This document shows, piece by piece, positions 6,399 through 48,523 of a stretch of 64,000 nt of DNA. A program made the translations under genes and the position numbers. Position 1 is the first letter of the stretch; each line of letters begins with the position of its first letter. The stretch lies in NCBI GenBank assembly GCA_014526335.1, contig JACTAT010000057.1:1-64000 (forward strand), in the 5' to 3' direction. This DNA is from Chrysaora quinquecirrha. Its lineage: Eukaryota > Cnidaria > Scyphozoa > Semaeostomeae > Pelagiidae. The notes below the pieces were generated by a model. The model worked only from the letters and a program-made list of their open reading frames with translations, was not told where the DNA came from and made no database searches.

Positions 6399-6415
6399 TC
6401 GGAAAAAGATCACAA

Positions 6416-10959: not shown

Positions 10960-10969
10960 TATTGAACAT
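9974..10969 (-). CDS. orphan class A (rhodopsin-like) 7TM receptor, intact
   Basis: A 331-residue single-exon receptor, expected at the cell surface. The extracellular N-terminus (1-57) has five N-glycosylation sequons (N3, N16, N29, N36, N43). TM1 is about 60-83, TM2 93-113 with SVSD, TM3 130-157, TM4 174-196, TM5 210-232, TM6 251-274 with a CCFLP motif in place of CWxP, and TM7 283-303. The DRY box is replaced by QRI (155-157), and the TM7 NPxxY region reads NSMLY, so G-protein coupling may be atypical. The basic ICL3 (KRRPAI...NKR) is class A-like. The ligand is unknown. Two damaged relatives (5408-6391, 22410-23042) and a fragment (12110-12342) show a local lineage-specific cluster. The start at Met1 is supported because frame and homology continue to it. 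Confidence is high for the 7TM class and low for function. Confidence 0.9.
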   Translation of the reverse strand: MFNKSDFKHDTTSSLNHSFAFNDKDLLFNDTFSRFNISDFYSNISIPDYHFPPGRTSTDDILSIVYIAIGLAGIIANMLQIGCICHKGKKRTTFDLVLLSHSVSDVVVLVPTLLANTIMLFTMTTLVLKILVTAALSTYFSVFSSLFHGIFIALQRICAVVVPFKVKRLFSTRRCLISIFFIWLSSIGLPFATVFALRATNGNHISITGLGYSIILSTACLIFLYSILLFLIKRRPAISCSSRANTNKRVIVHSFSLIAVFVCCFLPIGIVVLYKGQTSAWFSNIARMFFLFNPLFNSMLYFFVSYCRTRMKVQDNNTVELRNYRNSASEK

Positions 10970-11947
10970 TGTTGAATTATGAAAAAGCGAGACGTCAAAT
11001 ATTCACTCTGATACTTAAGTATTGAAATATCTTTCCTTTCCAATCAATTGCCCAATTGACAGGAAGTTAGCAATGAAATACAATACTGGTATAGCAATGT
11101 AAGTATTCTTCGGAAAAAGATCACGATGTTTAATCTAGCAAGTCGATCACTTGCGATTCTGATTTTGATTCGAGTCGCTATTTATTAAAAACTTGCTAGC
11201 AATTTTCCCAAGTTCTTTCTATCCAAAGATCGGATCGTCTCGAATCCAGTAGATTTCAGTTAATGTACTTGAGGAATAAAAGCAGCTGGAACGTACAAGT
11301 TTATTTAAAAGAGTTGTCGTTCCGATGTTTCTTTGCGGTCTCTCATATTCTTCTCCCTTGCAATTATTCAGCGATCGGCGTGTCACATCGCATCACGTTT
11401 ACTGAGTGCAGTCTTGTCAGACTGATTTTGAGAATGACATAATTTTTATGCTTCTTCGTATAAGTAGGAAAATTAATACAGCTCATCACGTGATGCTCAA
11501 AACCAATTATAGACTGGTTCTAATCTGTTTATTATTTGATGGTTGTTCGATTTTTTCATAATATAAATCACAAAAATAAACTACAGGCATAAAACCTCCT
11601 CCCAATTATGAAATTACGTTAAGTTCGCGAATAATATTCACATCTTTTGAAAATAGATAGCTCATTAAACTAATCAAAGCTGATCAAAACCGGGTTTTGG
11701 ACGTGTTATTTGAACTTCTGGAGATCAGTTTATGATAGCAGGAAACAAAGTTTGGCTTGTTTGGTCTAAACAGCCCAATAATTTAAATAGGAATGCAAAT
11801 AGCGGGATTTCAAAAGATTGAGGGCAGCAAAAATTGTTTACAAGTATAAATATTCATTTCAGAGGCAAAACTGATGTGATTTGATGAGCCAATGATGTTG
11901 TAAGATATCTTGTACTGAGATTCAGAAATTTTTGCCTAGCGTTTTCA
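10970..11947. other. 5' flank of GPCR, no gene seen
   Basis: AT-rich sequence upstream of the receptor. It holds the segment (11100-11125) to which the damaged copy is joined. I could not assign a promoter. Confidence 0.4.
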
Positions 11948-15900: not shown

Positions 15901-18900
15901 ATTTGATGACATGAGTGAGGCAAGTCATAGAAATACTTGAATTATTGTTTCAAAGCAATGCCCTGACGACTGGAAAACGTTGGTCAAGTATAGGTTTCTG
16001 CAATGCAACAAGAAGACAGAGACATGAATTATTTGATGACATGAATGAGGCAAGTCATAGAAATACTTGACTTATTGTTTAAAAGCAATTTTACTGACGA
16101 CTGGAAAACGTTGGTCAAGTATAGGTTTTTGCAATGCAACAATAAGATAGAGACATGAATTATTTGATGACATGAGTGAGGCAAGTCATAGAAATACTTG
16201 ACTTATTGTTTCAAAGCAATGTCCTGACGACTGGAAAACGTTGGTCAAGTATAGGTTTCTGCAATGCAACAAGAAGACAGAGACATGAATTATTTGATGA
16301 CATGAGTGAGGCAAGTCATAGAAATACTTGAATTATTGTTTCAAAGCAATGTCCTGACGACTGGAAAACGTTGGTCAAGTATAGGTTTCTGAAATGCAAC
16401 AAGAAGACAGAGACATGAATTATTTGATGACATGAATGAGGCAAGTCATAGAAATACTTGACTTAATGTTTCAAAGCAATTTTATTGACGACTGGAAAAC
16501 ATCTGTCAAGTATAGGTTTTTGCAATGCAACAAGAAGACAGAGACATGAATTATTTGGTGACATGAGTGAGGCAAGTCATAGAAATACTTGACTTATTGT
16601 TTCAAAGCAATGTCCTGACGACTGGAAAACGTTGGTCAAGTATAGGTTTTTGCAATGCAACAATAAGATAGAGACATGAATTATTTGGTGACATGAGTGA
16701 GGCAAGTCATAGAAATACTTGACTTATTGTTTCAAAGCAATGTCCTGACGACTGGAAAACGTTGGTCAAGTATAGGTTTCTGCAATGCAACAAGAAGACA
16801 GAGACATGAATTATTTGGTGACATGAGTGAGGCAAGTCATAGAAATACTTGACTTATTGTTTCAAAGCAATGTCCTGACGACTGGAAAACGTTGGTCAAG
16901 TATAGGTTTCTGCAATGCAACAAGAAGACAGAGACATGAGTTATTTGATGACATGAGTGAGGCAAGTCATAGAAATACTTGACTTATTGTTTCAAAGCAA
17001 TTTTACTGACGACTGGAAAACGTTGGTCAAATATAGGTTTTTGCAATGCAACAATAAGATAGAGACATGAATTATTTGATGACATGAGTGAGGCAAGTCA
17101 TAGAAATACTTGACTTATTGTTTCAAAGCAATTTTACTGACGACTGGAAAACGTTGGTCAAGTATAGGTTTCTGCAATGCAACAAGAAGACAGAGACATG
17201 AATTATTTGATGACATGAGTGAGGCAAGTCATAGAAATACTTGAATTATTGTTTCAAAGCAATGCCCTGACGACTGGAAAACGTTGGTCAAGTATAGGTT
17301 TCTGCAATGCAACAAGAAGACAGAGACATGAATTATTTGATGACATGAATGAGGCAAGTCATAGAAATACTTGACTTAATGTTTTAAAGCAATTTTATTG
17401 ACGACTGGAAAACATCTGTCAAGGATAGGTTTCTGCAATGCAACAAGAAGACAGAGACATGAATTATTTGATGACATGATTGAGGCAAGTCATAGAAATA
17501 CTTGACTTATTGTTTCAAAGCAATTTTACTGACGACTGGAAAACGTTGGTCAAGTATAGGTTTTTGCAATGCAACAATAAGATAGAGACATGAATTATTT
17601 GATAACATGAGTGAGGCAAGTCATAGAAATACTCGACTTATTGTTTCAAAGCAATGTCCTGACGACTGGAAAACGTTGGTCAAGTATAGGTTTCTGCAAT
17701 GCAACAAGAAGACAGAGACATGAATTATTTGATGACATGAGTGAGGCAAGTCATAGAAATACTTGAATTATTGTTTCAAAGCAATGTCCTGACGACTGGA
17801 AAACGTTGGTCAAGTATAGGTTTCTGCAATGCAACAAGAAGACAGAGACATGAATTATTTGATGACATGAATGAGGCAAGTCATAGAAATACTTGACTTA
17901 ATGTTTCAAAGCAATTTTATTGGCGACTGGAAAACATCTGTCAAGGATAGGTTTCTGCAATGCAACAAGAAGACAAAGACATGAATTATTTGATGACATG
18001 AATGAGGCAAGTCATAGAAATACTTGAATTATTGTTTCAAAGCAATTTTACTGACGACTGGAAAACATCTGTCAAGGATAGGTTTCTGCAATGCAACAAG
18101 AAGACAGAGACATGAATCATTTGATGACATGAATGAGGCAAGTCATAGAAATACTTGACTTATTGTTTCAAAGCATTTTTGCTGACGACTGGAAAACATC
18201 TGTCAAGGATAGGTTTCTGCAATGCAACAAGAAGACAGAGACATGAATTATTTGATGACATGAATGAGGCAAGTCATAGAAACACTTGACTTATTGTTTC
18301 AAAGCAATTTTACTGACGACTGGAAAAAATCTGTCAAGTATAGGTTTCTGCAATGCAACAGGAAGACAGAAACACGAATTATTTGATGACATGAGTGAGC
18401 AAAGTTATAGAAATACTTGACCTATTGTTTCAAACCATTGTCCGACGACTCGAAAGCTTCAGTCAAGTATAGGTTTCTGAAATGCCTAAAAAAGTCAGAG
18501 CCATGTTGTAATATATGAAATTAGTGATCAAAGGTATAGAAATACTTGACTTATGTTTCAAAGTTATGTCTTGACGATTGGAAAACATCAGCATGTATAG
18601 GTCGTCTGCAATGCCACAAAGTCGGCCATAGTATAATTAATGAAATTAGTGTGCAGAGTCATAGAAATACTTGACTTATGTTTCAAAGTGATGTCTTGTC
18701 GATTTAAAAACATCGGTTGAGGATAAGTCTTCTGCAATACCACATGAGGTCAGAACCATATTTTGATAAATGAAATGATTGAGCAAAGTCATAGAAAACA
18801 TCATGTATAGGTGGGTCTGAAATCAAATAAAAACTTTCACTTGCATTGCTTCACTTAATTTTCAAAGTAATGAAGATTGGAAAACATCATCCAAGTATAG

Positions 18901-18983
18901 GTCTTCTGCAATGCCACAAGAAGTCAGAGCCATGGTTTAATTAATGAAAAGAGTGAGCAAAGTCGTAGAATGTTTTTAAAGTA
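12950..18983. repeat. 130-bp satellite array, left block
   Basis: The head-to-tail monomer has a period of 130-131 bp (for example TCGTCTGCAA at 13961, 14091 and 14221). There are two main subfamilies: A, about 13310-14640, with TGCAATGCCACAAAAGTCAG; and B, about 15110-18420, with TGCAATGCAACAAGAAGACA. Diverged monomers lie at both borders. Shared boxes are AAGTCATAGA-ATACTTG, TGTTTCAAA, TGACGACTGGAAAAC, TCAAGTATA and CTGCAATGC; the stretch between CTGCAATGC and the AGTCATAG box is subfamily-specific. No coding potential. Confidence 0.95.
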
Positions 18984-19307
18984 CAAAACTAGTTTTTTTA
19001 ATAAGAAACCGACTATAAGAAACTATATATGCCGTTTTCTAAAAAGTCAAGAAACTCTTCTATATGGACTAAGAAGTATAACAAAAACTAGGAAACTATT
19101 TCTGCCTTTAAATTCAGCTTTCTACTTTCTGATATGCATTTTATATTGTTTACATGAAAATAATCCTCAAAAACTATCATGCTTAGGAATAATTCAAGAA
19201 AATGTCCATGTTTTGAGTGCTTAGACCATCATACTTTATATTACATACAACATCATATTAAACCATTATTTCATGAAGTTCTCGAAGTTTCAATTTTTAT
19301 GTTAAGA
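16360..19307. repeat. segmental duplication inside satellite, copy 1
   Basis: Matches 19308-21600 in monomer order and private variants, including the transposon at 18984. Copy 2 lacks about five monomers (equivalent to 16860-17510) and one more near 17970, and has one extra near 20600. Confidence 0.85.
18984..19307. mobile_element. AAGAAAC-type MITE, 3'-truncated copy
   Basis: Identical or nearly so to the first three quarters of the element at 21279-21697, but cut at 19307, where satellite resumes mid-monomer. The truncation marks the junction of the segmental duplication. The 84-codon frame within it is present in both copies and is not considered a gene. Confidence 0.8.
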
Positions 19308-21278
19308 CGACTGGAAAACGTTGGTCAAGTATAGGTTTCTGCAATGCAACAAGAAGACAGAGACATGAATTATTTGATGACATGAATGAGGCAAGTCATA
19401 GAAATACTTGACTTAATGTTTCAAAGCAATTTTATTGACGACTGGAAAACATCTGTCAAGTATAGGTTTTTGCAATGCAACAAGAAGACAGAGACATGAA
19501 TTATTTGGTGACATGAGTGAGGCAAGTCATAGAAATACTTGACTTATTGTTTCAAAGCAATGTCCTGACGACTGGAAAACGTTGGTCAAGTATAGGTTTT
19601 TGCAATGCAACAATAAGATAGAGACATGAATTATTTGGTGACATGAGTGAGGCAAGTCATAGAAATACTTGACTTATTGTTTCAAAGCAATGTCCTGACG
19701 ACTGGAAAACGTTGGTCAAGTATAGGTTTCTGCAATGCAACAAGAAGACAGAGACATGAATTATTTGGTGACATGAGTGAGGCAAGTCATAGAAATACTT
19801 GACTTATTGTTTCAAAGCAATTTTACTGACGACTGGAAAACGTTGGTCAAGTATAGGTTTTTGCAATGCAACAATAAGATAGAGACATGAATTATTTGAT
19901 AACATGAGTGAGGCAAGTCATAGAAATACTCGACTTATTGTTTCAAAGCAATGTCCTGACGACTGGAAAACGTTGGTCAAGTATAGGTTTCTGCAATGCA
20001 ACAAGAAGACAGAGACATGAATTATTTGATGACATGAGTGAGGCAAGTCATAGAAATACTTGAATTATTGTTTCAAAGCAATGTCCTGACGACTGGAAAA
20101 CGTTGGTCAAGTATAGGTTTCTGCAATGCAACAAGAAGACAGAGACATGAATTATTTGATGACATGAATGAGGCAAGTCATAGAAATACTTGACTTAATG
20201 TTTCAAAGCAATTTTATTGGCGACTGGAAAACATCTGTCAAGGATAGGTTTCTGCAATGCAACAAGAAGACAGAGACATGAATCATTTGATGACATGAAT
20301 GAGGCAAGTCATAGAAATACTTGACTTATTGTTTCAAAGCATTTTTGCTGACGACTGGAAAACATCTGTCAAGGATAGGTTTCTGCAATGCAACAAGAAG
20401 ACAGAGACATGAATTATTTGATGACATGAATGAGGCAAGTCATAGAAACACTTGACTTATTGTTTCAAAGCAATTTTACTGACGACTGGAAAAAATCTGT
20501 CAAGTATAGGTTTCTGCAATGCAACAGGAAGACAGAAACACGAATTATTTGATGACATGAGTGAGCAAAGTTATAGAAATACTTGACCTATTGTTTCAAA
20601 GCAATTTTACTGACGACTGGAAAAAATCTGTCAAGTATAGGTTTCTGCAATGCAACAGGAAGACAGAAACACGAATTATTTGATGACATGAGTGAGCAAA
20701 GTTATAGAAATACTTGACCTATTGTTTCAAACCATTGTCCGACGACTCGAAAGCTTCAGTCAAGTATAGGTTTCTGAAATGCCTAAAAAAGTCAGAGCCA
20801 TGTTGTAATATATGAAATTAGTGATCAAAGGTATATAAATACTTGACTTATGTTTCAAAGTTATGTCTTGACGATTGGAAAACATCAGCATGTATAGGTC
20901 GTCTGCAATGCCACAAAGTCGGCCATAGTATAATTAATGAAATTAGTGTGCAGAGTCATAGAAATACTTGACTTATGTTTCAAAGTGATGTCTTGTCGAT
21001 TTAAAACATCGGTTGAGGATAAGTCTTCTGCAATACCACATGAGGTCAGAACCATATTTTGATAAATGAAATGATTGAGCAAAGTCATAGAAAACATCAT
21101 GTATAGGTGGGTCTGAAATCAAATAAAACTTTCACTTGCATTGCTTCACTTAATTTTCAAAGTAATGAAGATTGGAAAACATCATCCAAGTATAGGTCTT
21201 CTGCAATGCCACAAGAAGTCAGAGCCATGGTTTAATTAATGAAAAGAGTGAGCAAAGTCGTAGAATGTTTTTAAAGTA
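19308..21278. repeat. 130-bp satellite array, right block
   Basis: Continuation of the same array, equivalent to 16360-18983 with monomer gains and losses. From 20775 to 21265 the diverged border monomers repeat those at 18480-18970 with two or three single-base changes. Confidence 0.9.
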
Positions 21279-21719: not shown

Positions 21720-22350
21720 GGGCAGACTGCCAGAAGAAGGTGTTATTGAACCCAGCCAGTCACCATGGTGTGCTGAAGTTGTCCCAAGAGACGAGAACTA
21801 GAAGAGACGTAACGATAGATCACTCTCAGATAATCAAAAGTCTCACTCAGCTTGATGCATTTTCGCTACCACTAGAATCAATGACACTGCAAATAAAATT
21901 GCCCAGTAAAGAATTTTCAATACCTTAACCTTTGATCTTCAAAATGCATACCACCAGTTATCAGTTACCATTGAAGGATGACGACAAGCTATATACTGCC
22001 TTTGAAGCAAAAGGTGGACTTTCTCAATACCCGTTTTCCTTTTGGAGTTACCATAGGTGTACCATGCTTCCAAAGAGAAGTGGTCAGGTTTGTTGAAAAT
22101 CTTTATCTCAAACTAGTTCTCTGATACCTCGAAAACATTACTGTCTGTGGTAAGGATCAAGAGGATCACGATGGCAATCTCTCTCTAGAAGTTCATGGAA
22201 GCTGCTCGAAAAGTTAATCTTAAATGTAATGACAGCTAACGGTTTTTCGCACAAAATGTAACTCATGGCCGACATATTATTCTTATATTCTCCATAGAGT
22301 TCCAGGGCAGAACACCAAACTAATGAATTTATAGAGAGGACGAAGAAATA
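21720..22350 (+). pseudogene. decayed gypsy-type reverse transcriptase fragment
   Basis: In shifting frames the plus strand reads pieces typical of Ty3/gypsy RT: EPSQSPWCAEVV, LTFDLQNAYHQL, LYTAFEAKGGL, PFGVTIGVPCFQRE, YLENITVCGKDQEDHD and FMEAARKVNLKC. The order is correct for RT blocks. Several frameshifts and stops, and the absence of flanking gag, integrase or LTRs, mark it as dead. The YxDD box reads YLEN, which is either degeneration or a lineage variant. It sits between the satellite and a GPCR pseudogene. Confidence 0.8.
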
Positions 22351-22409
22351 TCTGTACATTTGTATTGTTGCGTTCTTCCAAACTTTTCTTGATAAAGTCA
22401 AGTAGCTTT

Positions 22410-23042
22410 CTAGTTTATTGGTGTCGAACTTCGGAAATTCGTCATTTTCGTTCGCTTGTTCTCTTGTGACGTCATATTTGCTCGAAATGACGCAATGAAG
22501 AAGTAAAGCTACGAATCAAAGAGTAAATTGCAATAAAAGAGTAGATTTGCGATGCCTTCAAACCAAAAACGTCCTTTGTAGCTACGATGAATATTGGTAA
22601 ACAGACCTTCGATTCCAAACGGAAGAACACAGTAGAGGAATATAAGCACCAATGCAAATGAATGCGCGACAACTCTTGTGTTTGGGTTATCTCTTCTGTT
22701 TGATGGAATTGCTGGCCTTCTCTTAATAAGAAACAACAAAATGCTGTACAGTAAAATGAGACATACTGCGGATGGTATGATAAGGTAGAAAGCACCTTCG
22801 ATAACTTCTGCTATTGAATTATTTCTCGACATCTGAGCTATTGCCGCAGGTATTCCGATAGACGCTACCCATATTAACAATATTGAAATAATACAGTGAC
22901 GTGTGCTGAACAGTCTTTTGACTCTAAATGGAACCAGAACAGCGCAAATTCCTTGTATGGCGATGAATATTGTATGAAGTAACGAAGAAATAACTGAAAA
23001 AATTCCAGGAGTGATAGCATATTTCCATATCGTTTTGTGCAA
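22410..23042 (-). pseudogene. class A GPCR pseudogene (TM3-TM7)
   Basis: The minus strand encodes a diverged relative of the receptor at 9974-10969 from TM3 (FIAIQGICAVLVPF, with QGI replacing DRY) through TM4, TM5 (LLYSILLFLIKRRPAI), TM6 (YCVLPFGI) and into TM7 (CNLLFDS). There an in-frame TAG (22509-22511) stands exactly where the family has Met of NSML. Homology resumes immediately after it as LYFFIASFR and runs to a natural stop at 22410-22412. TM1, TM2 and the N-terminus are missing or unrecognisable upstream of 23042. Codons are otherwise well preserved, so inactivation may be fairly recent. Confidence 0.8.
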
Positions 23043-24741
23043 GCTGTACGGCTCAGTATGGAAGTTTGGAAAATTTGCGAAGAGAAATTGGGATTTTAGA
23101 AAATCCTTTAAGACAGGCGAAATTTTTTTTCTGTTCTTTATTACTGGTATCAGGCTTAAAGTTTTGGGCTAAAAAAATCAGAATTTTTTTCAAAACATTT
23201 TGAAAACTTTAGGCGTGAAATTGCCTTAAGTGCTGTATTCTTCCATGTTATGAATCTATTTGGCTCTAACATTTCCCGTTTTTAAGATATAACGCAAAGA
23301 AAAACTTTTGCCATAGCGAGCCTTCATTAAAACAGCGGCTTCTGCCAGTTTTCCGCTTTGATAATTTTGGCCTCACCGTGAACAATACAAATTATCTCGG
23401 GTCGGACATCTAGCGACTTCGTCGCTATATCATTGCATATAATATATAATATAATATATGTTTATATATAGTACATATGAAAATTACGAAATTGTATGTC
23501 AAGTGGCCCTATCGGGTTTTAAAAATTACTTTAGCAACATGATAAGTATTTGCCGTATCTATTTCATCAAAAGAGCACAGGCCCAAAAATCCTTGGAATG
23601 AGCGACTTAGCTAATAATGCATACTCAAAGAAGAGAGCTTATTCGAATGATCACCCCCTAATCTTGTCAAAAATGCGCTTATTCTAATGACACACCCTAT
23701 ACGTACACATGGTGGTGAATACCATTCTGCTACCCCTGGATTCTTGCTAGGATTCGTTTATTGCCCGGAAGGAGCGCGCGAGAGCGCGACTGGAGGGCTT
23801 ATAGTCTCCCCCGCGTGAACTGTTTTACTGGATTCTATCTCATTTTGCCAAATGTTGTCAGCAATATGTCAGCAAATTTTGGTCAAGTTGGAACATAGGC
23901 TCGTCAAAACGAGTCTGGGATTCTGTTTTTCAGTCCGTGGAGAGGATTCCCTTACTCGATACGGCTACCATTTTCCAAAACAATGTCTCGCCCGACCCAG
24001 GCCTCTCTGTAAAGGTCTATTTGCCTCAGAAATTTCCGCCAAAGTTTGAAATTTTGTGTCCCAAAAAGGATGTGTTCCGAAAATTCGCAAAAAATTTGTT
24101 CATTTTCTGCCCAAATTTTTACCGAATGTTTTGGCGCGTACCCAAAACTTTCCTCTGAACTTGAGGCCAGGTCCGAGTTCCCCTGTCCTTTTAATGTAGA
24201 AGCGCCTCCCCCCTGGGAGAAAAATCTGAAATCCGTGGTATCTCTCTTCCTCAAACAATCGTTCTAATTTTAGCCAGTAGGTCCAGGGGGTTTCTAATAT
24301 ACGTAACCTGCGGTTTTACGAAGACCCTAAAAAATTTCCCTTGAAGAAACGAAATCAAACATTATTTGATATGCAAAATTGTGAGTAAATAGTGTATAAA
24401 TCCCTCACTCAAAATGTCGTTATCTTTTTACGAAGATCAAGACTCTCTTGGAATGTTTGTCAGCCATGTATTGTTACTATACACGTTTCTATTTAAACTG
24501 CGAAACGAATCATTTAAACTAAAGGTAAATGTTAGGAATGAACTTTGCTTGACTTTGCTATATTCTGATTTACATTGCTATAGCCGTAGCGGTCAGATAC
24601 AATATTTGGTTGCATTGCTTCGAATTTGGGATTATTTCTTTTATAGCATATAAAAAATACATATCAGCCGTTTTTGGACTCGAGAGGTAACGCAATAATT
24701 TGTTTCTTTTAGCCGAGTAACAAAAATACGTAAGTAAGCTA
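23043..24741. other. no gene seen
   Basis: Contains an (ATATA)-rich tract near 23435-23475 and a 100-codon minus-strand frame (23952-24254) without recognisable motifs. Confidence 0.4.
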
Positions 24742-32708: not shown

Positions 32709-32956
32709 TATTTATATTTAAAGTTCAATGGGCAGTGCGCATGGAGGCTTGGAGCGAATTTAATGGCTTGCAGTGAGTCTAGAAACTTTGCTGAAAGTTT
32801 GGCTGTGACCCTGCTCCTAGTCTTTTTCCGACGAACTATTAAAGTTTCTCCTCCAAAGACTAGGACATGGTCCCAAAACAACTGTCTGCGCTCCTGTGCA
32901 GCGAACAGAATTGACAGAAAGAGATGGGAGGAAGTCTAAATTAAACACTGTAGTAT

Positions 32957-33744
32957 CACCCCGTACAACGTGTGTGCAGTAGTGTGGGGGATGTGCAGTA
33001 GTGTGGGGGATATTCAGTAGTGTGGAGGGATATCATGAGTTGCACGGGGAGGCATCTCTGAGTAGTGTGGGGGATGTTCAGTAGTGCGGAGGGATATCTC
33101 TGAGTAGCGCGGGGGATGTTCAGTAGTGTGGAGGGATACCATGAGTAGTGCGGAGGGATATCATGATGCTTTCGGGGAGGCATCATCAGTAGTGTGGGGG
33201 ATGTTCAGTAGTGCGGGGGGATACCATGAGTACCGTGGAGGGATATCATGATGCTTCCGGGGAGGCATCTCTGAGTAGTGTGGGGGATGTTCAGTAGTGT
33301 GGGGGATTATCTCTAAGTAGCGCGGGGGATGTTCAGTAGTGTGGAGGGATACCATGAGTAGCGCGGAGGGATATCATGATGCTTCCGGGGAGGCATCATC
33401 AGTTGTGTGGGGGATGTTCAGTAGTGCGGGGGGATATCATGAGTACCGTGGAGGGATATCATGATGCTTCCGGGGAGGCATCTCTGAGTAGTGTGGGGGA
33501 TGTTCAGTAGTGCGGAGGGATATCTCTAAGTAGCGCGGGGGATGTTCAGTAGTGTGGAGGGATATCATGAGTAGCGCGGAGGGATATCTTTCAGTAGTGT
33601 GGGCCATTTGCATGATGATCATGTTAATCACGCTTAATCAGGTTGAGAAACAGTGTTAAAAGACGGGGGCTCAGCAACACGCGTTTTGCAAGACCTGAGA
33701 AATCGAGCGATTCCTTCATAATGTGACAATTTTGTTGAACCGAA
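32957..33744. repeat. left inverted arm of foldback-like element
   Basis: After the 22-bp terminus, units follow in three classes. X is 19 bp (AGTAGTGTGGGGGATGTTC). Y is about 22 bp (core GGAGGGATATCATG). Z is 22-23 bp (core CGGGGAGGCATC). By hand the order is XXYZ, XYXYYZ, XYYZ, XYXYYZ, XYYZ, XYXYY, then about 150 bp of non-repetitive inner arm. The ten-unit phrase XYXYYZ-XYYZ (about 213 bp) is a higher-order repeat. Open frames here are by-products. Confidence 0.9.
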
Positions 33745-34325
33745 ATGCAATTGAGCATACTGGAAAGGAATTTTTCTTCAATTTCGCTTGCTGATTTGAA
33801 TACCTGGCAACAATATGTAAATGCCACGATATTTTTCTAAGAAAATCTATTTCTAAACTTGCAGTTTTCTCTCTCTCGCTATCGTACTTGTTGTGCTATA
33901 CACATTTTCATTTCCTGTTCGAAAACGGTCGTCAGAACAATCGAGAAGCAATTTACTAAACTCCAAATTTAAGCTTTCCTTCTTTACTCGAATGTAATTT
34001 GACTTGATAATCAAAGAGATTCGCTTTTGTGCAAAGTAGCTATTCATCTGGAAAGAAAATAAGTACTTCTCTGACAATGGTTGCTTTAATGTGCATATCA
34101 TAACGCAACTCACGCGTTTCGGTATTTAAAGTTAAAATCCCTTTCTCGCAGTCTAAGACAGGGATGAAATGAAACAAAACTATTTTAGAAAGCCGTTTTT
34201 TTCAGGTTTCTTACGGGGTTTGGAAAAATGTTGAAACTCCCAGAATAGTAGCTTTAACTCCAAGTCCCTCTATGACACACACGGTCACTATATCGTGCCT
34301 TACTGACTTTGCGTGACCATAATCG

Positions 34326-34558
34326 TTGTCTAGAAAATATATACTTCCTACCAACAAAGGTTGCTTTAATAATAGCTATTCAATAATAAGCCCACCTAGC
34401 CTGAAAAAGTACAGCCCCTTCAAAGTTCATTTCAGTTTCAGTCGCAGTTCGAGCAAGATTTCTTTGACAATGTCTTCGTTTACTAGTCCGATTCAAGGTT
34501 TTAGAAGAATTCTAGAAACTGGAAATACGGAAGAAATAGAAAGGAACTGAGTGAGTCG
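34326..34558 (+). promoter_or_regulatory. leader with upstream ORF of the zinc-finger gene
   Basis: An ATG frame here (with an internal ATG at 34470) ends in TGA at 34548-34550, eight bases before the zinc-finger ATG at 34559. If transcribed, this short uORF could limit translation or require reinitiation. A GTGAGT at 34551 also resembles a splice donor, so an alternative first exon is possible. Neither use is demonstrated. Confidence 0.3.
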
Positions 34559-35470
34559 TTGATGCCAACAATACCGAAGCCTTTCAATATTCCACAGCAA
34601 AAACAACCACTTTCGCAAGATTTGGAATACAGTTATGAAGATGCTCAGCAAGTGTACGACAGTGATTTCAATGCTGCAGCAAGCAACTCGTATTCAAGTC
34701 TTCATCGTACTAGCGCTGGAAGCTCCTCCACAGCAACACAGTCGTCGTTATTACCCCTCCATTTCCCGCAAGACAATTCGGTCAAAGGAAAAGCAACTTC
34801 AGAAAACGATATTTTGAAGAAATACAATTGTCCAGAGGAAAATTGTAAAGCCGCGTTTTTCAGAAAAGACCGTTTGGACCGACACATCGCTACCATACAC
34901 CGTGGAATAAAGATCGCCTGTCCTCATGATGGTTGCGAAAAGCTGTACAGAGACAAATGGGACCTACAACGTCATATTGCTGGACAGCACGAGGGTATGG
35001 AATTCAAATGTAGTTTTCCTGGTTGCAAGAAAGCTTATAAGCATAAGCGAAGTCTCACCTTGCACAAGTTCCAGTGTCATGAAGAGGAATTGGAAGGAAA
35101 TCAAGCATCTTTCATTTGCTCTGTACCCAGTTGCGAAAAAAGATTTAGCCAGTCACATCTTTTGGAAGGTCACATGACATTGCATGATGGGGGAAAAAAG
35201 CACAAGTGCAAAATATGCAAAAAGGAATTTGGCTATGTGCATAACTTAAGAAGGCACGAAAAGAAAGGATGCAGCTCGGCAAGTGTTGCAGCAAAGTCTT
35301 TTTTATGTTCTGAAGGAAATTGTGATGCTGGGTTTTCCGATATCAGGAGTCTAAGAAGACATATTCAGACAGTTCATGAAAAAAGAAGATTTGAATGCAG
35401 AATTTGCAAAGCCAAGTTCTCGTATTCATCGGGTCTTAGTAGACATAAACTGACTTGTACAAGTCAGTAA
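34559..35470 (+). CDS. seven-finger C2H2 zinc-finger protein, TFIIIA-like
   Basis: An intact 303-residue single-exon ORF. Residues 1-90 form a low-complexity Ser/Gln-rich N-terminus. Seven C2H2 fingers follow from about residue 95 to the C-terminus. Fingers 1-4 and 6 have the Cx4C spacing of TFIIIA/Zic types (for example CPEENCKAAFFRKDRL then HIATIH). Fingers 5 and 7 have Cx2C spacing and end in a Cys (HEKKGC, HKLTC), so they are C2HC. Linkers such as HRGIKIAC and HEGMEFKC are TFIIIA-like, not TGEKP. Expected to be a nuclear DNA- or RNA-binding protein. TFIIIA itself has nine fingers, so this is a shorter relative. It is the only intact gene in the loop of a foldback-like element and has no frameshift, which suggests selection or youth. 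Targets are unknown. Confidence 0.85.
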   Translation: MMPTIPKPFNIPQQKQPLSQDLEYSYEDAQQVYDSDFNAAASNSYSSLHRTSAGSSSTATQSSLLPLHFPQDNSVKGKATSENDILKKYNCPEENCKAAFFRKDRLDRHIATIHRGIKIACPHDGCEKLYRDKWDLQRHIAGQHEGMEFKCSFPGCKKAYKHKRSLTLHKFQCHEEELEGNQASFICSVPSCEKRFSQSHLLEGHMTLHDGGKKHKCKICKKEFGYVHNLRRHEKKGCSSASVAAKSFLCSEGNCDAGFSDIRSLRRHIQTVHEKRRFECRICKAKFSYSSGLSRHKLTCTSQ

Positions 35471-35896
35471 CTATGCTAGTATTTCCTTCTTTATTATTTA
35501 TTTTCTTATTTAGCCTACTGATGTTCGTTGTATTTTATTACATTATGTTATGTTAAGTTTTGATATGGTTATATACAACTTATCGGAGTTGAAAGTCGCA
35601 TTCTTATGAAACGTTCAAGCGATTCTAAACTGAGATTAAATTGATAATCCGCTGATTACACACTATTTTTTAAAAGAATTCAGTCCATAAGAACATCGAG
35701 GCGCAAAATGGCTAAAATTTTAGAATTATTTAAGTAAGCATAATGCAAGGCTCAAGCTTCACAAACACAATTTCTTTATTTCCTGCGTTTTATGCAAGGC
35801 GCAAAAGTTGATTGTCGCGTTGTATATGTTTAACAATACACAGACTACATTGGTACAATAAGATTGACGGAGTTGAAATAGTGCTACGAAATGCAG
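35471..35896. other. 3' flank of zinc-finger gene inside loop
   Basis: AT-rich. An ATTAAA near 35635 could serve as a polyadenylation signal. Nothing else recognised. Confidence 0.35.
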
Positions 35897-37797
35897 TTCG
35901 GTTCAACAAAATTGTCACATTATGAAGGAATCGCTCGATTTCTCAGGTCTTGCAAAACGCGTGTTGCTGAGCCCCCGTCTTTTAACACTGTTTCTCAACC
36001 TGATTAAGCGTGATTAACATGATCATCATGCAAATGGCCCACACTACTGAAAGATATCCCTCCGCGCTACTCATGATATCCCTCCACACTACTGAACATC
36101 CCCCGCGCTACTTAGAGATATCCCTCCGCACTACTGAACATCCCCCACACTACTCAGAGATGCCTCCCCAGAAGCATCATGATATCCCTCCACGGTACTC
36201 ATGGTATCCCCCCGCACTACTGAACATCCCCCACACAACTGATGATGCCTCCCCGGAAGCATCATGATACAAGGCATATTTTAACGTATGTACTGGTGGG
36301 CCATTTGGCCCACCAGGCCCCACAAGCTGGCCCACCACTGACGACAATTTTTGCCAAATTGGCCCACCACTGTTTGGGCCCTTTGCCCAAACTAGTAAAT
36401 GACCTGGAGTTGTTTCGATACAATAAAACTGAAACACGTTTTATTTTTGCTACAAAATTGTATTGAAAACATAAGAAAAGTAAATTGATTGAATTGATTT
36501 GTTGTTGCAATACATCAAAAGCTTCATCGAAATTACACCTTGAAAGGCTAAGTAGGACCACCAACTGCCTTGGAAAATATGTTTATATAATTAAGAATTT
36601 TAGTCCGAAAGAGGCTACGAGAGCAAAAGTAGCTGCTTCTATATTCAAAATTTTCCCCACAAGCTGGCCCACCACTGACGACAATTTTTGCCAAATTGGC
36701 CCACCACTGTTTGGGCCCTTTGCCCAATCTAGTAAATGACCTGGAGTTGTTTCGATACAATAAAACTGAAACACGTTTTATTTTTACTACAAAATTGTAT
36801 TGAAAACATAAGAAAAGTAAATTGATTGAATTGATTTGTTGTTGCAATACATCAAAAGCTTCATCGAAATTACACCTTGAAAGGCTAAGTAGGACCACCA
36901 ACTGCCTTGGAAAATATGTTTATATAATTAAGAATTTTAGTCCGAAAGAGGCTACGAGAGCAAAAGTAGCTGCTTCTATATTCAAAATTTTCCGGGGGAG
37001 CATGCCCCCGACCCCCCAAGGAGGGTCCGCCTTCGGCGCACTAACTCACTTTAGTGCCCCTTTTTTCATGTTCCACCCCCCCCACTTTTCAATACCCTCC
37101 TACGCCCCTGTGATACAGTTGTTTTACGTGCTATATGCAAGGGATGTACAAAATTTGTTGCTCAATTCATTTCTCTCTATTCTATTTATTGAAGAAGCCG
37201 GAGTGTAAAGTAATTGGACTTTATGAATGAGCTTCCGATAGGGCTTGGATATTAAAATTAGGATCTCATCTCTGTGGACTTTCTCCGGGCTGGCAGTGAA
37301 AAAAAATTATAAGAATTTATTGGGCCCCATGTCACCTTTGGCCCACCACTGAAAATTTCTTAAAATATGCATTGTCATGATATCCCTCCGCGCTACTCAT
37401 GGTATCCCTCCACACTACTGAACATCCCCCGCGCTATTTAGAGATAATCCCCCACACTACTGAACATCCCCCACACTACTCAGAGATGCCTCCCCGGAAG
37501 CATCATGATATCCCTCCACGGTACTCATGGTATCCCCCCGCACTACTGAACATCCCCCACACTACTGATGATGCCTCCCCGAAAGCATCATGATATCCCT
37601 CCGCACTACTCATGGTATCCCTCCACACTACTGAACATCCCCCGCGCTACTCAGAGATATCCCTCCGCACTACTGAACATCCCCCACACTACTCAGAGAT
37701 GCCTCCCCGTGCAACTCATGATATCCCTCCACACTACTGAATATCCCCCACACTACTGCACATCCCCCACACTACTGCACACACGTTGTACGGGGTG
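35897..37797. repeat. right inverted arm, interrupted by hAT MITE
   Basis: Reverse complement of 32957-33744, split at 36262-37382 by the hAT element and its duplicated TCATGATA. Unit order and even unit variants (for example the CGGTACTCATG Y unit) mirror the left arm. Confidence 0.9.
36270..37374. mobile_element. hAT-type non-autonomous element
   Basis: Termini CAAGGCATATTTTA and TAAAATATGCATTG are 13/14 inverted matches. Flanked by the perfect 8-bp duplication TCATGATA (36262-36269 and 37375-37382). No transposase. It contains two tandem ~337-bp copies of a segment (starting CCCACAAGCTGGCCCACCAC at about 36320 and 36657), rich in TTGGCCCACCACTG words. Confidence 0.9.
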
Positions 37798-38074
37798 AGT
37801 ATGAACACTTTACTAAGAAGACTTCTGAGAGAAAACGAGACTTTTTTCTTGCCGAAATTTAAGAACCATTGCCAATAACATTGTAAGACCGTTATTGCAT
37901 TATACAAACGTTATTACATTATACGATGGTCTTTTCTTTGTAAAAACATATCTACTTCCATACAAGCGGAAACCTCTAGAAAGCCCCTATACTATGGAAA
38001 ACTAAATGGACTGTTGTCTGGCGTTACCCCCTGGCGCCTTTTCTATATATTGTGCAACGGTACTTCCTACAGTC

Positions 38075-38169: not shown

Positions 38170-39108
38170 ATGGAGTCGAAAATTCGAAATTTTGATGGCA
38201 ATGGTGAAATCAAAGTTTTTCTCGAAAAGGTTGATTTGCACTCAGCCCTAAAGGGCTATGATGCTGCAAAGTCAGCGCAGAATCTGGCAAGCAAACTCGA
38301 AGGTCGTGCCTTTGACGTTTATATGCGGTTGTCTGACACAGATAAGAAAGATGTCAAGAAAATAAAAGAAGAATTAATGAAAGAATTTCAACTGGGAAAT
38401 CAAGACAGAGAAAAGGCCATGCAAGAATTGGGTACCCGACAACGTAAACCTGGTGAGTCTCCACAAACCTTTGCTTTTAAAATAATGGAGCTCGTTAAAC
38501 TTGCGTATCCTACTTTTGACAATGCAAATCAAGAGACCATAGCGAAGGATTACTATATGAAAGGCATCCATCCGAAAATGCAAATCGCTTTAAAAACAAT
38601 GCCAAATTTTACTGCATTAAGCCTCAACGAGGTGGCCAAGGAAACTATCAGATTACAATTAGCCGGCATTGAATCGATTTCTTTGCCCACACAAAATCAA
38701 TGCATGAGCATCAACAATGACGCAAATGAGAAGAATCAAACCCTGATGGACTCAATTGTAGAAAAAGTTGTTGCTAAGATGACAGATATGTCTGTGGGAG
38801 CTGAAACGTCCAATGAAGCCTGTAGTGAAACTACCCAGGAATTTCCCTCCGCTAATTTCCTTAGTAGTCGTTTCAATAGGAATCAAAGAGGAACAAGAGG
38901 ACGACAATATGTCAACAGAAACAATAGCCGTTATAACAACCGGGGGTACAGGCAAAATAATTCTCGTACGAATAATCAACAAACCAGGAAATGCCGTGCC
39001 TGCCAAAGCACCGATCACTTTGTCCGTGATTGCCCAACTAGGTTTTGCCAGGCTTGCGGTCAAAGAGGTCATGACTCTTGGGACAGGTCGTGCCCAAATT
39101 TCCAATGA
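38170..39108 (+). CDS. gag: retrotransposon Gag-like polyprotein
   Basis: 312 residues. The N-terminal two thirds are helical and charged, as in Ty3/gypsy capsid proteins (MQELGTRQRKPGESPQTFA region). An Arg/Asn/Gln-rich basic linker follows, then two C-terminal zinc knuckles: C275-C278-H283-C288 (CX2CX4HX4C) and C293-C296-H301-C308, the second with an unusual H-x6-C spacing. Such Gag proteins package element RNA in cytoplasmic particles. The ORF is intact and ends CAA-TGA-CTA, after which the same frame continues into protease. No flanking LTRs were recognised. The element is truncated within RT, so this is a remnant despite the clean gag. Confidence 0.85.
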   Translation: MESKIRNFDGNGEIKVFLEKVDLHSALKGYDAAKSAQNLASKLEGRAFDVYMRLSDTDKKDVKKIKEELMKEFQLGNQDREKAMQELGTRQRKPGESPQTFAFKIMELVKLAYPTFDNANQETIAKDYYMKGIHPKMQIALKTMPNFTALSLNEVAKETIRLQLAGIESISLPTQNQCMSINNDANEKNQTLMDSIVEKVVAKMTDMSVGAETSNEACSETTQEFPSANFLSSRFNRNQRGTRGRQYVNRNNSRYNNRGYRQNNSRTNNQQTRKCRACQSTDHFVRDCPTRFCQACGQRGHDSWDRSCPNFQ

Positions 39109-39375
39109 CTAGGCCAAGAAGAAAAAGCGAGTAGCACTGGAACACCTAGTCGTCCATTTTCTGCCGTATTAGAAGTAAAGTTCGAGAATAAATTACTAAA
39201 TGCTTTGTTAGACACTGGAGCGAGTTGCTCAATTATTGATCTTGGAACTATTCAAAATCTCGGACTTGATAAGAATATAATTAAATCTACCCACGAATTG
39301 ATAGATGCTTCAGGGAACGATATGAGCATTGCAGGGTCTGTCGATTTAAACGTGCATTCCGCGATTTCCGAGTAG
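39109..39375 (+). pseudogene. pro: aspartic protease segment, same frame as Gag
   Basis: The frame continues directly past the gag TGA. Codon 35 of this stretch starts the retropepsin signature DTGAS (Asp codon at 39211), followed by CSIIDLGTIQNLG and a flap-like ASGNDMSIAG segment. It terminates at TAG (39373-39375). The following Pol frame carries the expected next residues (FRVVQN, ILGRDFL) in another phase, so a one-base shift near 39355 breaks the protease. Stop readthrough could express it if the shift were absent or bypassed. Confidence 0.75.
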
Positions 39376-39383
39376 TTCAAAAC

Positions 39384-40616
39384 ATGAAAGTTCTCAATTC
39401 GAAAACATTTCGTAACGTTATTCTTGGAAGAGACTTTCTGTCTCATTTTAAAACGGTCGAATTTGACTTTGTAGGCAATCGCGTAAAATTGGGAAATCAG
39501 TGGTCTAACTGCGTAGAAATAAGAGGGAAAGAACTTGTCCGATTAAACGAAAAAACTTCAGTTGCAGGTCGAACAGAAACGGTAATCCAAGTCAAATGCA
39601 AAAAATCAACTGCACTGATTACTGCAGATTTCGAACCAATTCCGATTTCAGAAAAACCTGGCATTTACGCAACGTACTGTCGAGTAATTCCAAACATTGA
39701 AGGAGTTTTCAACATCACCCTTCTAAATGTAACCGATCAATCCATAGAGCTAGATTGTGATCAAATGATTGGGCATTTGGTTAGCACAGATAAATCTGTC
39801 TCTGTTATTGAACCCGTATCCGCCGCTACCTCGCCTACGAAAGATAACATTGTGGTTGGCAGTAATCTTTCTATGACGGAGAAAGAACAGATTTCTTCAT
39901 TAATTTGTAAATACAAAGACGTATTTGCGTCAAATCCTAAAAAACCCAACCTTGTTAAGAACATGAAACATCGTATCATCACAAATAATGAACAGCCAGT
40001 TAATAGGAAACCGTACCGTGTTCCTTATGCCTGGCATGCAGAGGTCGACAAACAAATTCAAGAAATGGTCGACAATAATATCATCCGCCCGTCATCTTCC
40101 CCTTGGAATGCGCCGATCATTCTTGTCAGAAAAAAAGACAATTCAATGAGGTTCGTGTGCGACTTTCGTGGGCTTAACGACGTCACAAAAAAGGATTCCT
40201 ATCCTCTACCTCGTATTCGTGACGTCATAGACAATATGCAAGGGACAGAATATTGGACGACACTAGACGCGGCGTCGGCATATTGGTCTATTCCGGTAGC
40301 AGAGACAGATAAAGAGAAAACTGCTTTCTCCGTCTCCCGCGGCAAGTTTGAATTCAATGTGATGCCCTTTGGCTTGTGCAATGCCGGGGCGTCATATCAA
40401 AGAATGATGGATATAAACTTGGCTGGTCTGCCAACTAATCGAATCTTAGCATACATGGACGACATCGTTGTGTTCAGCAAAACGTTTGATGAACATTTAT
40501 CCAGCATTGAGCAATTATTTCAGCGGCTTCAGACATCCGGAATATCCCTCAAACTCTCAAAGTGCGTTTTCGCCAGTAACAAAGTTGACTTTCTCGGATT
40601 GGAACCCTTCCTTTAA
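39384..40616 (+). pseudogene. pol: Ty3/gypsy-like Pol: protease end plus truncated RT
   Basis: A 410-codon open frame. It starts in the protease tail (ILGRDFLSHF) and continues through the classical RT blocks: SSSPWNAPIILVRKKD, RFVCDFRGLND, TLDAASAYWSIPV, FNVMPFGLCNAGASYQRMM, then catalytic YMDD at 40452-40463 (YMDDIVVFS), and KLSKCVFASNKVDFLG. It then ends abruptly (EPFL, stop at 40614-40616). Thumb, RNase H and integrase are absent. Sequence after 40605 is unrelated, so the 3' half has been deleted or replaced. The RT core itself shows no stop, implying recent truncation. Confidence 0.85.
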
Positions 40617-42364: not shown

Positions 42365-43945
42365 GAACTGTCGATACATCTATTCTATTCTATTCTATGA
42401 TTTATTTAATGTTAGTTTTGACAATAGTGATGTGACACTAATTTACACTAACATGAAGCAACTTCAGAGATTGCATTAGGTCATTATTTGTTGCAAAAGG
42501 AGCAAGCGCATTTGTTACTAAGAAACCACGTTTTTAGCAAGTTTTTAAACTGCCTTGGGTTTCGAGCCGATGTTATTTCATCCGGAAGGGCGTTCCAGAT
42601 TTTTGGTCCTTGGAAACTTAGTGATTTGATTCCATAGCTTGTAGTCCTGACTTTCGGAATTTCAAGGATATTTCTTTTACGGAGGTTGTGATCTACTTGC
42701 TTTGGTGAAAAATAGCTTTTCATAAATGCTGGGTTAATATTATTAAGAGTTTTGTAGACTTCATACGCTAGAAGTCTAATGGATTGGACATGGACAGTAG
42801 TTTCTCTAGATCTTGCAAGTAAAGTTTCGTACGAGGACGTGTAATCAGAGCACGCTAGTCGCAAAGCTCTTTCATTTATTTTTTCAAGCTTGTCTTGGCT
42901 ACCCTTGTTACATAGCATCAAAATCAATGGGCAATAATTGAAATGACAGAGGATAAATGAATTTATTATGATCTTTCTTTCTTTTTCACCCATATATCTT
43001 GCTAAACGTTTGAGCGAGTTTAGTTGTTTTGCAGCTTTTTTACATATTTTGTCAATGTGGGAATCAAACTTTAAGTTGTCATCCAATTCAACACCAAGAA
43101 GGGTAACCTGATTGTCTACTTTTATGTCTAGATTTGCGTCAATTTCAAAGCTATGTGTTTATCTTTATTTCCAATAGTTATTGCTTGAAACTTAGGAAAG
43201 ATAGTTTTGAATTAACAGGAGAGATCTTAGTTCTATTCCGTAAGCATGCAGTTTTGCTAGAAGCAGATTTTTTGGAAGGCAATCAAAAGCCTTAGATAAA
43301 TCCATAAGGACAGCGCCTATATGTTTGTTGTTTTCTAAACCTGATTTCCAATCTTCAATCAGCCTAAATAGAGCGTGTTGTGAAGAAAAGTGTTTTCTAT
43401 AAGCACATAGGTACATTGAGTACCGATCCTCGAAAAATAGAGAGAGTTGAAGCTCAATTGCTTTTTCAAAAACTTTTGAAAAAGTTGTCAGTAAACTAAT
43501 GGGTCTGTAATTTTCTTTATTAAAAGGATCTTTTTTCTTATATACTGGTGTAACAACTGCTTGTTTTAAAGATTTAGGAAAAGTCCCTTGAGAAATACAT
43601 TTGTTCAAAACATTAAGCAATGGCTGTAAGATTAAATCAACTGAGATTTTTAGAAGTTTAGCGCTTATCATGTCATGTCCAGTTGCTTTTTTATCATCTA
43701 GATTTGTAATAATATATCGAAGTGCTCCTTTAGGAACAAGTTTAAAGTTTAAGCTGGAATCATTTGATAAATTAGCTTTTATTTTTCTAATACTTGGATG
43801 GTCTTGGAAATTGTGTATTATATCTCCTATTGTTAATTGTTCTTTATAATAGACAAATGTATGTGTCTCTATTTCCTTTACAAGGCTATGGTTGTTGAGT
43901 ATCCTATTTGTAGTTGTTAATAGAGGACAAATCTTTTTCGCTGAG
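42365..43945 (-). pseudogene. LINE (CR1/L2/jockey-type) with RT core deleted
   Basis: The minus strand reads N-terminal RT blocks (ATGHDMISAKLLKI, TPVYKKKDPFNKENYRPISLL, VLMDLSKAFDCL) down to about 43195. It then jumps directly to the connection region (FPKFQAITIGN) and, after a frame shift near 43150, to VTLLGVELDDNLKF and the C-terminal domain ending at 42484. The palm segment with the YADD box is missing. The 3' end carries a (TAGAA)n-type simple-repeat tail on the minus strand (plus-strand TCTAT repeats at about 42380-42400), typical of CR1/L2-group elements. The 5' end is truncated around 43945. Confidence 0.85.
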
Positions 43946-43971
43946 TTTTCAGTTCTTGAAGTTCCCTTCAC

Positions 43972-46305: not shown

Positions 46306-46611
46306 CACCCCCTAAATGTCTGTGCAGTACGGTGGGGGATGTGCAGTGCGGTAGCGGATACTCAATACGGTGGGGGATCTGTGATTGCTGCGGGGAGGCA
46401 TCTTGCAGTACGGTGACGGATATTCAGTACGGTGGGGGATACCATGGTGCCTGTGGTGGGATACCATGATTGCCGTGGCGGATATTCAGTACGGTGGGGG
46501 GATACCATGATGGCTGTGGAAGGCATCATGATTGCCGGGGCGGATATTCAGTACGGTGGGGGGATACCATGATGGCTGTGGTGGGATACCATGATTGCTA
46601 TGGGGAGGCAA
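46306..46611. mobile_element. diverged solo arm of the foldback-like family
   Basis: Begins CACCCC...TGTCTGTGCAGTA, like the terminus at 32957. It continues with 19-23-bp units in which the X word reads AGTACGGTGGGGGATGTGC. Unit order by hand is XXYZ, XYY, XYZ, XYYZ. Only one arm is seen, and it ends at a Z unit (GGGGAGGCA). Open frames are incidental. Confidence 0.75.
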
Positions 46612-47348
46612 ATTTGTTAAGATCAATAACTAGCCTGGTGTTACGTACTTAAATACTTCTCGACGTTTTCAAGTTTGGAAAACATTGAACTTTCTTAAGA
46701 AAAATCTGATACGTTACCACATTTCATACAGTAGACCAAATAATGTTTTACACACGAATTTTGAAATGGGTGGGGTTGTGCACACCCTACGACCCTATAC
46801 CGTAAATCTCTGCTGGGTAAAACTACATGAGCCACTGTTTAAAGGGTTACATACGTGGTTCTCCTTTACAATTTCGTCCTCATCTTCAGTTCATGCAAAA
46901 ACTCTTACCCCCTGACTGGCCTATTCATTCATGTAATAATAATCTGCTGACATAAATCTTGTTATTTTTGATGTACTTAAATTCGGGTAATCCATTCCGC
47001 TAAGGCCTACTATAAACGTTGAACGTTCCGCTTTATACGACTCTCGTTCTTGCAGGATTTACGGGGATTTACCTCCCCATTGAGACAACTGTGAATCTCA
47101 ATGGATTGACAACATAGATGACAACCTGATCAGTTGATGTTTGTTTTTCCAGAGCTTCTATTCAGAGTTGCTGTGTCTTGTTACTTGTTGGTCCTGGTAT
47201 CCTCTGCTTACGACTTTCACTTCTTATTTGCTCTGTGTTGATGATTGGTACGACGATTACATAACAGGTATGCTATAGTTTGTAGCCACAGGCGCAATTT
47301 TTATCTGGAACTTCGCTCTGATTATTGTATTATAAATTTGATTAATTA
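46612..47348. other. no gene seen
   Basis: No supported gene or repeat. Confidence 0.4.
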
Positions 47349-48023: not shown

Positions 48024-48523
48024 NNNNNNNNNNNNNNNNNNNNNNNNNNNNNNNNNNNNNNNNNNNNNNNNNNNNNNNNNNNNNNNNNNNNNNNNNNNNN
48101 NNNNNNNNNNNNNNNNNNNNNNNNNNNNNNNNNNNNNNNNNNNNNNNNNNNNNNNNNNNNNNNNNNNNNNNNNNNNNNNNNNNNNNNNNNNNNNNNNNNN
48201 NNNNNNNNNNNNNNNNNNNNNNNNNNNNNNNNNNNNNNNNNNNNNNNNNNNNNNNNNNNNNNNNNNNNNNNNNNNNNNNNNNNNNNNNNNNNNNNNNNNN
48301 NNNNNNNNNNNNNNNNNNNNNNNNNNNNNNNNNNNNNNNNNNNNNNNNNNNNNNNNNNNNNNNNNNNNNNNNNNNNNNNNNNNNNNNNNNNNNNNNNNNN
48401 NNNNNNNNNNNNNNNNNNNNNNNNNNNNNNNNNNNNNNNNNNNNNNNNNNNNNNNNNNNNNNNNNNNNNNNNNNNNNNNNNNNNNNNNNNNNNNNNNNNN
48501 NNNNNNNNNNNNNNNNNNNNNNN
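48024..48523. other. assembly gap of 500 Ns
   Basis: Exactly 500 ambiguous bases, a placeholder length. True size and content are unknown. Confidence 1.

Follow-up and report, generated by a model that had tools for sequence, protein, structure and literature searches.

Several described groups of DNA transposons share features with a mobile unit at positions 32957-37797 of contig JACTAT010000057.1 of the scyphozoan Chrysaora quinquecirrha (assembly GCA_014526335.1), of which the first 64,000 nucleotides, hereafter the window, were analysed. The unit carries long inverted arms around a zinc-finger gene. The published groups are characterised here as in excerpts of the cited papers. Galileo has long arms and flanking duplications of 7 base pairs (bp); in one of its subfamilies the arms contain tandem repeats with a unit of approximately 210 bp, and such repeats are regarded as carrying additional sites for transposase binding (PMC3573991). 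ISL2EU elements encode a YqaJ nuclease, have mostly two open reading frames (ORFs) and AT duplications, and their ends usually start with GG (PMC4482050). KolobokE encodes a PD-(D/E)XK nuclease of the lambda-exonuclease-like type, and a C/DxxH signature characterises Kolobok transposases (PMC9587614). In RAG-like elements the termini begin with CAC, the target duplication is 5 bp long and two convergent genes are present, the protostome consensus of the terminus being CACTWMCAAAC (PMC7204232). CMCT elements have mostly CA..TG ends and 2-5-bp duplications (PMC12730594). The hAT5 elements, recorded in some invertebrates, also generate duplications of 5 bp (PMC9004415, PMC12730594).

The window unit was interpreted as a non-autonomous derivative, shortened by deletion, of a two-gene cut-and-paste DNA transposon, with a probability of roughly 0.7. 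In this transposon, a large protein with a YqaJ-type domain is taken as the transposase and the zinc-finger protein would bind the arms. The features of a terminal inverted repeat (TIR) DNA transposon were found, namely terminal inverted repeats, target duplications, many copies and, for one related copy only, empty sites.

Structure of the unit and its copies in the genome

Both ends of the unit read CACCCCGTACAACGTG inward, starting at 32957 on the left and, as the reverse complement, ending at 37797 on the right. Each end is flanked by the target site duplication AGTAT (32952-32956 and 37798-37802). The arms comprised 796 bp each, with five mismatches between them. The left arm spans 32957-33752 on the plus strand; the right arm, on the minus strand, consists of an inner part at 35889-36269 and an outer part at 37375-37797, which ends with CACGTTGTACGGGGTG. 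The outer part of each arm, about 650 bp, was composed of G-rich units of 19-22 bp within 213-bp higher repeats. In the left arm, this array of the CAGTAGTGTGGGGGATGTT type spans 32973-33602 (plus strand) and is proposed to represent protein binding sites. Between the arms lie a non-coding left core upstream of the zinc-finger gene (33753-34469, plus strand), which was found in other copies too, the gene itself and a non-coding right core (35471-35888, plus strand).

The two parts of the right arm are separated by an insertion of 1,105 bp (36270-37374). It is flanked by an 8-bp duplication, TCATGATA, at 36262-36269 and 37375-37382, and has short inverted ends, CAAGGCATATTTTAA and CAATGCATATTTTAA. 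The uninterrupted left arm represents the empty site for this insertion, which by its structure looks like a hAT-type element younger than the host unit. It holds a 337-bp internal tandem duplication, and a piece recurs at L028:1367-1423. A sequence-only reading that preceded this analysis had given the coordinates, the termini and the AGTAT direct repeat exactly. It had also described near-identical inverted arms of equal length; the arms are indeed equal once the insertion, absent from that description, is removed, and their length has to be corrected from 788 to 796 bp.

The genome was searched with the arm across 328 Mb in 740 contigs. Of 1,464 candidates, 40 were scored; they gave 47 match rows, and many of the matches occurred as inverted pairs. 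We grouped them at approximately 26 places including the window, so that about 25 further places carry copies. Element parts were mapped in 20 retrieved stretches, leaving out arm hits below 90 bases. Two subfamilies were distinguished by their terminus, CACCCCG and CACCCCA. Fifteen copies were delimited at both ends, ten of which measured 1.5-3.1 kb. Exact 5-bp duplications were present in 11 of these 15 copies, or in 11 of 16 when the C290 copy was counted; the count excludes the stacked copies at L015 and L016, L030, C113 and any copy of which a single end was recognised. The copies L012, L013 and L019 had one internal junction in common, and another was found in most CACCCCA copies. These common junctions indicate that derivatives themselves multiplied.

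Among the CACCCCA derivatives, L011, L014, L016-L018, L020, L021 and L023-L025 retained just the first 153 bp of the finger gene. This remnant was 97-99% identical to the window, and their left core 87-91%. A copy at L027:1744-7400 with a TTTAT duplication seemingly owes its length to an internal insertion that resembles a long terminal repeat (LTR) retrotransposon. At L015 and L016, element copies were stacked less than 60 bases apart beside retrotransposon-like frames, and their arm order suggests nested or recombined copies.

Empty sites were recovered for L033, a related copy of 9,134 bp (C246:4654929-4664062). Its flanks, joined at the duplication, matched C91:841792-842123 (97%) and C387:2397353-2397685 (95%), in both cases over all 333 bases and with a single GATCT. 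Numerous weaker matches of the same flanks showed that the target site lies in a repeat. The flanks of the window unit matched a diverged locus, C486:122803-123120, at which the element is absent. There, the letters at the junction differed and some 60 additional bases lay close to it, which made AGTAT unreadable, so that the empty site with a single AGTAT envisaged by the sequence-only reading was not obtained for the window itself. The joined flanks of 15 copies gave no empty site among the retrieved loci. Origin of the inverted arms by segmental inversion or as an assembly artefact, a possibility raised at the outset, found no supporting point; it is refuted by the presence of copies with target duplications on numerous contigs and by the empty sites for one of them. 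The same observations support a single mobile unit with Foldback-like arms.

The zinc-finger gene and its partner in full-length copies

The zinc-finger frame of the window (34559-35470, plus strand) was the only long frame of the core and measured 321 codons when counted from stop to stop. When the core was shuffled 500 times by single bases, the longest frame reached 170 codons at most. Seven fingers were recognised by pattern, five of the C2H2 type and two of the C2HC type (fingers 5 and 7). The frame matched zf-C2H2 in Pfam, and the best chain in the PDB was TFIIIA (8ffz_A) with an expectation value (E) of 4.8e-16. The N-terminal region of the window protein was shared by two fragments from public sequences; P0001 was 55% identical over 44%, and P0006 was 62% identical over 37%. 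Both contain the stretch MSSFTS, the counterpart of which begins at the ATG at 34470 in the window. This conserved start region (34470-34550, plus strand) was open in P0006, L009, L011 and the long copy described below. In the window, the frame from 34470 hits a stop at 34548, out of frame with the fingers, and the finger frame is open from 34505, with the next possible start at the ATG at 34562. The window copy is accordingly read as carrying a small frame shift near the gene start, and a shorter finger protein starting at 34562 could be produced. The gene had been called an intact seven-finger gene; the frame and its seven fingers are real, and intactness does not extend to the conserved start.

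Two-gene copies were found at several loci. A long copy at C246:5607432-5617495 (10,064 bp, GTTCA on both sides) comprised the finger gene and a spliced gene on opposite strands in convergent orientation, and its finger gene had an open start. L033 represents a separate family, with ends CACCCTGGAGAACGTC, GATCT on both sides and arms 98.5% identical. It retained an open zinc-finger frame, and the large gene was likewise open over its first three exon matches. Further two-gene copies were C113 and C290, whose arms measured approximately 1.1 and 1.36 kb; the left end of C113 was not found and its finger gene was split into two frames. L030 was a long copy too, although damaged, and just one of its ends was recognised. 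In the distant family L031, the arms were 94% identical, the ends were CACCCGGTGTAACGTG and TTTCT was present on both sides. The finger frame of L031 was 43% identical to that of the long copy and 47% to that of the window, and its first finger had lost its pattern; neither exon 1 nor exon 2 of the large gene was matched in L031. Besides the two genes, no frame recurred in both the long copy (at least 100 codons) and L033 (at least 150 codons) among those listed. Larger copies with a transposase had been suggested as something to look for: relatives of 9-10 kb exist, and their large gene is the candidate for that role.

The large gene, in the following also termed the nuclease gene, was represented by 77 rows genome-wide, falling into 38 places. 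A zinc-finger gene was located within 4 kb at 14 of these 38 places, for which random placement gave a probability of approximately 5e-24; the test used the best 70 of 145 zinc-finger rows, corresponding to 63 places, and the other 75 rows were dropped. The pairing of finger and nuclease genes is thus best described as a property of the element.

A comparison of the window with the long copy showed 95% DNA identity over 1,002 bases of the finger gene and 88-89% in the adjoining non-coding core. The two finger frames differed by 26 synonymous and 20 non-synonymous changes, giving a ratio of non-synonymous to synonymous substitution rates (dN/dS) of 0.19, as expected for a gene under purifying selection. 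Together with the lower identity of the non-coding core, this ratio indicates that the finger gene works, or worked, for the element. It appears to be an old resident, one of the element's own two genes. The sequence-only reading had offered a recently captured transcription factor as one of two explanations. Recent capture of a host factor by a Foldback element would agree with the window copy, which viewed alone shows arms and one gene, and with TFIIIA as the best match of the fingers. It is scarcely credible for a gene that recurs in full-length copies, that adjoins the nuclease gene in 14 instances and lies inside its own arms in the distant L031, and that shows a dN/dS of 0.19. An ancient capture before the families split is possible. 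In viral contigs, the search with the finger protein returned two pattern stretches, neither coding for a relative, and the search with the terminus returned no match.

The large protein and its placement among transposon families

In the long copy, exon 1 of the large gene was a frame of 546 codons and exon 2 a frame of 667 codons. As the joint between them is read through in P0009 and L033, both were assigned to a single protein. Three introns of the gene had GT..AG borders. Exon 3 was conserved in C113, C290, L033 and L030, with one stop each in the C290 and L030 stretches. The protein is estimated at 1,300-1,400 residues, with a predicted YqaJ-type PD-(D/E)XK nuclease domain in its middle. 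Against the Pfam model YqaJ (cut-off 22.0), exon 2/L022 scored 22.1, just reaching the cut-off, L033 scored 23.9 and P0010 33.3. The motifs followed in the order LSFDGK (exon 1), nuclease D and ExK (identified by eye), FDGE, WDxTH and ENFFS (exon 3). LSFDGK, FDGE, WDxTH and ENFFS were present in L030, C113, L033, C290 and the long copy, and the acidic motifs were kept across families that are 42-62% identical. The order D, D, DxxH, E resembles that of DDE/D transposases with a C/DxxH signature, as excerpted from PMC9587614. The large protein is therewith a putative transposase.

Alternatively, the YqaJ protein could be an accessory factor, with the transposase supplied in trans and the two-gene element itself non-autonomous. 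Nucleases of the YqaJ or lambda-exonuclease-like type adjoin the transposase in ISL2EU and KolobokE according to the excerpts cited above, and no transposase model of Pfam matched the large protein. However, the protein is far bigger than the YqaJ domain of 150 positions, its acidic motifs are retained across the families, and no other recurrent frame could supply the transposase among those listed for the long copy and L033. An accessory role is considered unlikely.

The described groups compare with the element as follows. Foldback/Galileo elements of the P superfamily have long inverted arms with internal tandem repeats, as found here. They differ in their 7-bp duplication, compared with 5 bp in 11 of 16 copies, and the two genes found here are of another kind; a P-type transposase was not matched by Pfam in the exons tested. 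ISL2EU elements are likewise DNA transposons with an encoded YqaJ nuclease domain, but their YqaJ ORF is separate from the transposase, their duplication is AT and their ends usually begin with GG, whereas one large protein, 5-bp duplications and CACCC termini were observed here. KolobokE likewise encodes a PD-(D/E)XK nuclease, and the motif order of the large protein resembles that of transposases with a C/DxxH signature such as those of Kolobok. Kolobok duplicates TTAA, in contrast to the variable 5 bp of the present element; none of the 11 exact duplications corresponded to TTAA, and no sequence match was obtained.

A divergent Transib/RAG-like (CMCT) transposon would account for the CAC start and the 5-bp duplication, and the convergent gene pair is typical of the RAG-like forms; the CA..TG ends and 2-5-bp duplications of most CMCT elements agree as well. 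Beyond CAC, however, the terminus misfits the protostome consensus, the partner is a C2H2 protein, and inspection of exon 2 beyond FDGE by eye revealed no C(2)C motif. Chains of RAG1 and Transib are present in the PDB, and neither was hit with the profiles A4 and A5 of the two halves of the large protein. Membership in this group is considered improbable. An affiliation with hAT5 or another hAT element, suggested by the 5-bp duplication and the occurrence of hAT5 in some invertebrates, is very improbable, as Pfam detected no hAT domain in the exons tested.

None of the candidates Galileo/P, ISL2EU, Kolobok, Transib/RAG-like and hAT5 fitted all features tested. A transposon combining YqaJ with a C2H2 partner was not named in the open-licence literature among the matches listed. 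The element was classified as a TIR DNA transposon outside these groups that possibly represents a new superfamily; a name may exist in Repbase or Dfam. The new element class that had been offered beside recent capture is possible, with no known transposase family matched in Pfam or the PDB.

Arm repeats, proposed mechanism and wider meaning

Every one of the seven arms tested contained the arm repeat CAGTANNGTGGRGGAT at least once, and none of the six bodies tested contained it more than once, with crude two-base block shuffles as the control. Related arm repeats are thus present in the tested families. G-rich triplets suit C2H2 fingers, from which we infer that the finger protein reads the arm repeats. 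As a possible mechanism, the tandem G-rich repeats would be bound by the finger protein, either by itself or jointly with the large protein, and both ends of the element would thereby be paired. The large protein would cut at the CACCC termini and insert the element with a 5-bp stagger, and the nuclease may trim or resolve intermediates. The window copy is without the large gene and would need this protein from another copy.

Several observations weigh against the two-gene transposon with a YqaJ-bearing transposase and an arm-binding finger protein. No zinc-finger gene was present within 10 kb at 24 of the 38 nuclease-gene places, many of which are fragments. Just 14 of the 63 zinc-finger places were partners of a nuclease gene, the list including ordinary C2H2 genes, and the gene order of the 14 pairs was convergent in eight and divergent in six. 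Duplications were not exact in five of 16 copies; two of these matched in four of five positions and three mismatched, among them C290 with ATCCT versus ATAGT. The exons of the large gene were read from sequence alone, the later ones being a guess. The YqaJ match was weak, with E below 1 in three of nine alignment members, and P0009 spans the domain without a match. The distance from FDGE to the DxxH motif, about 200 residues, is longer than is known from described transposase families. For either half of the large protein, no transposase match was obtained in Pfam or the PDB, so that the DDE reading depends on motif resemblance; apart from YqaJ, these searches returned weak rows only, for example lectin, Cas1 and SL4P. 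The full CAGTANNGTGGRGGAT consensus was found just once per arm in L031 and C290, and the commonest arm unit of C290 is a different one, TGTAAGTGGAGG.

The remainder of the window contained further repeats and mobile elements. A single end of a related family (CACCCCCTAAATGTCTGTGCAGTACGGTGGGGG, C113-type repeat) was located at 46306-46613 (plus strand), and its partner end was not found within the window. Directly beside the unit, 38170-40616 held Gypsy-like frames for gag, with a zinc knuckle, and reverse transcriptase. Reverse transcriptase frames at 42484-43971 (minus strand) resembled those of long interspersed nuclear elements (LINEs) by look only. Three frame copies at 5408-6456, 9974-11002 and 22138-23168, two of them broken, resembled a seven-transmembrane receptor by eye. 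Tandem arrays with a 130-bp unit and higher periods of 261 and 391 bp occupied 13273-21034, and a run of 500 N was present at 48024-48523.

A more far-reaching proposal, made tentatively and possible rather than probable, is that these elements form a new superfamily of DNA transposons in animals. In this superfamily, a YqaJ nuclease would be inserted inside a DDE-type transposase, between the first and second catalytic acids, and the ends would be recognised by a separate seven-finger C2H2 protein that reads the tandem G-rich arm repeats. Under this proposal, full elements could be titrated or regulated by short copies in which the finger gene is retained and the transposase lost. Among the sequence-specific DNA-binding domains of animals, C2H2 fingers form the largest class. 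A transposon with a seven-finger protein of its own beside a nuclease-bearing candidate transposase would provide a natural, testable case of co-evolving finger arrays and target repeats, and host transcription factors might arise from it. With it, a further transposon lineage with 5-bp duplications could be set beside RAG/Transib. With several families together in one genome, their genes and arms being readable, the pairing of finger array and repeat would be directly testable.

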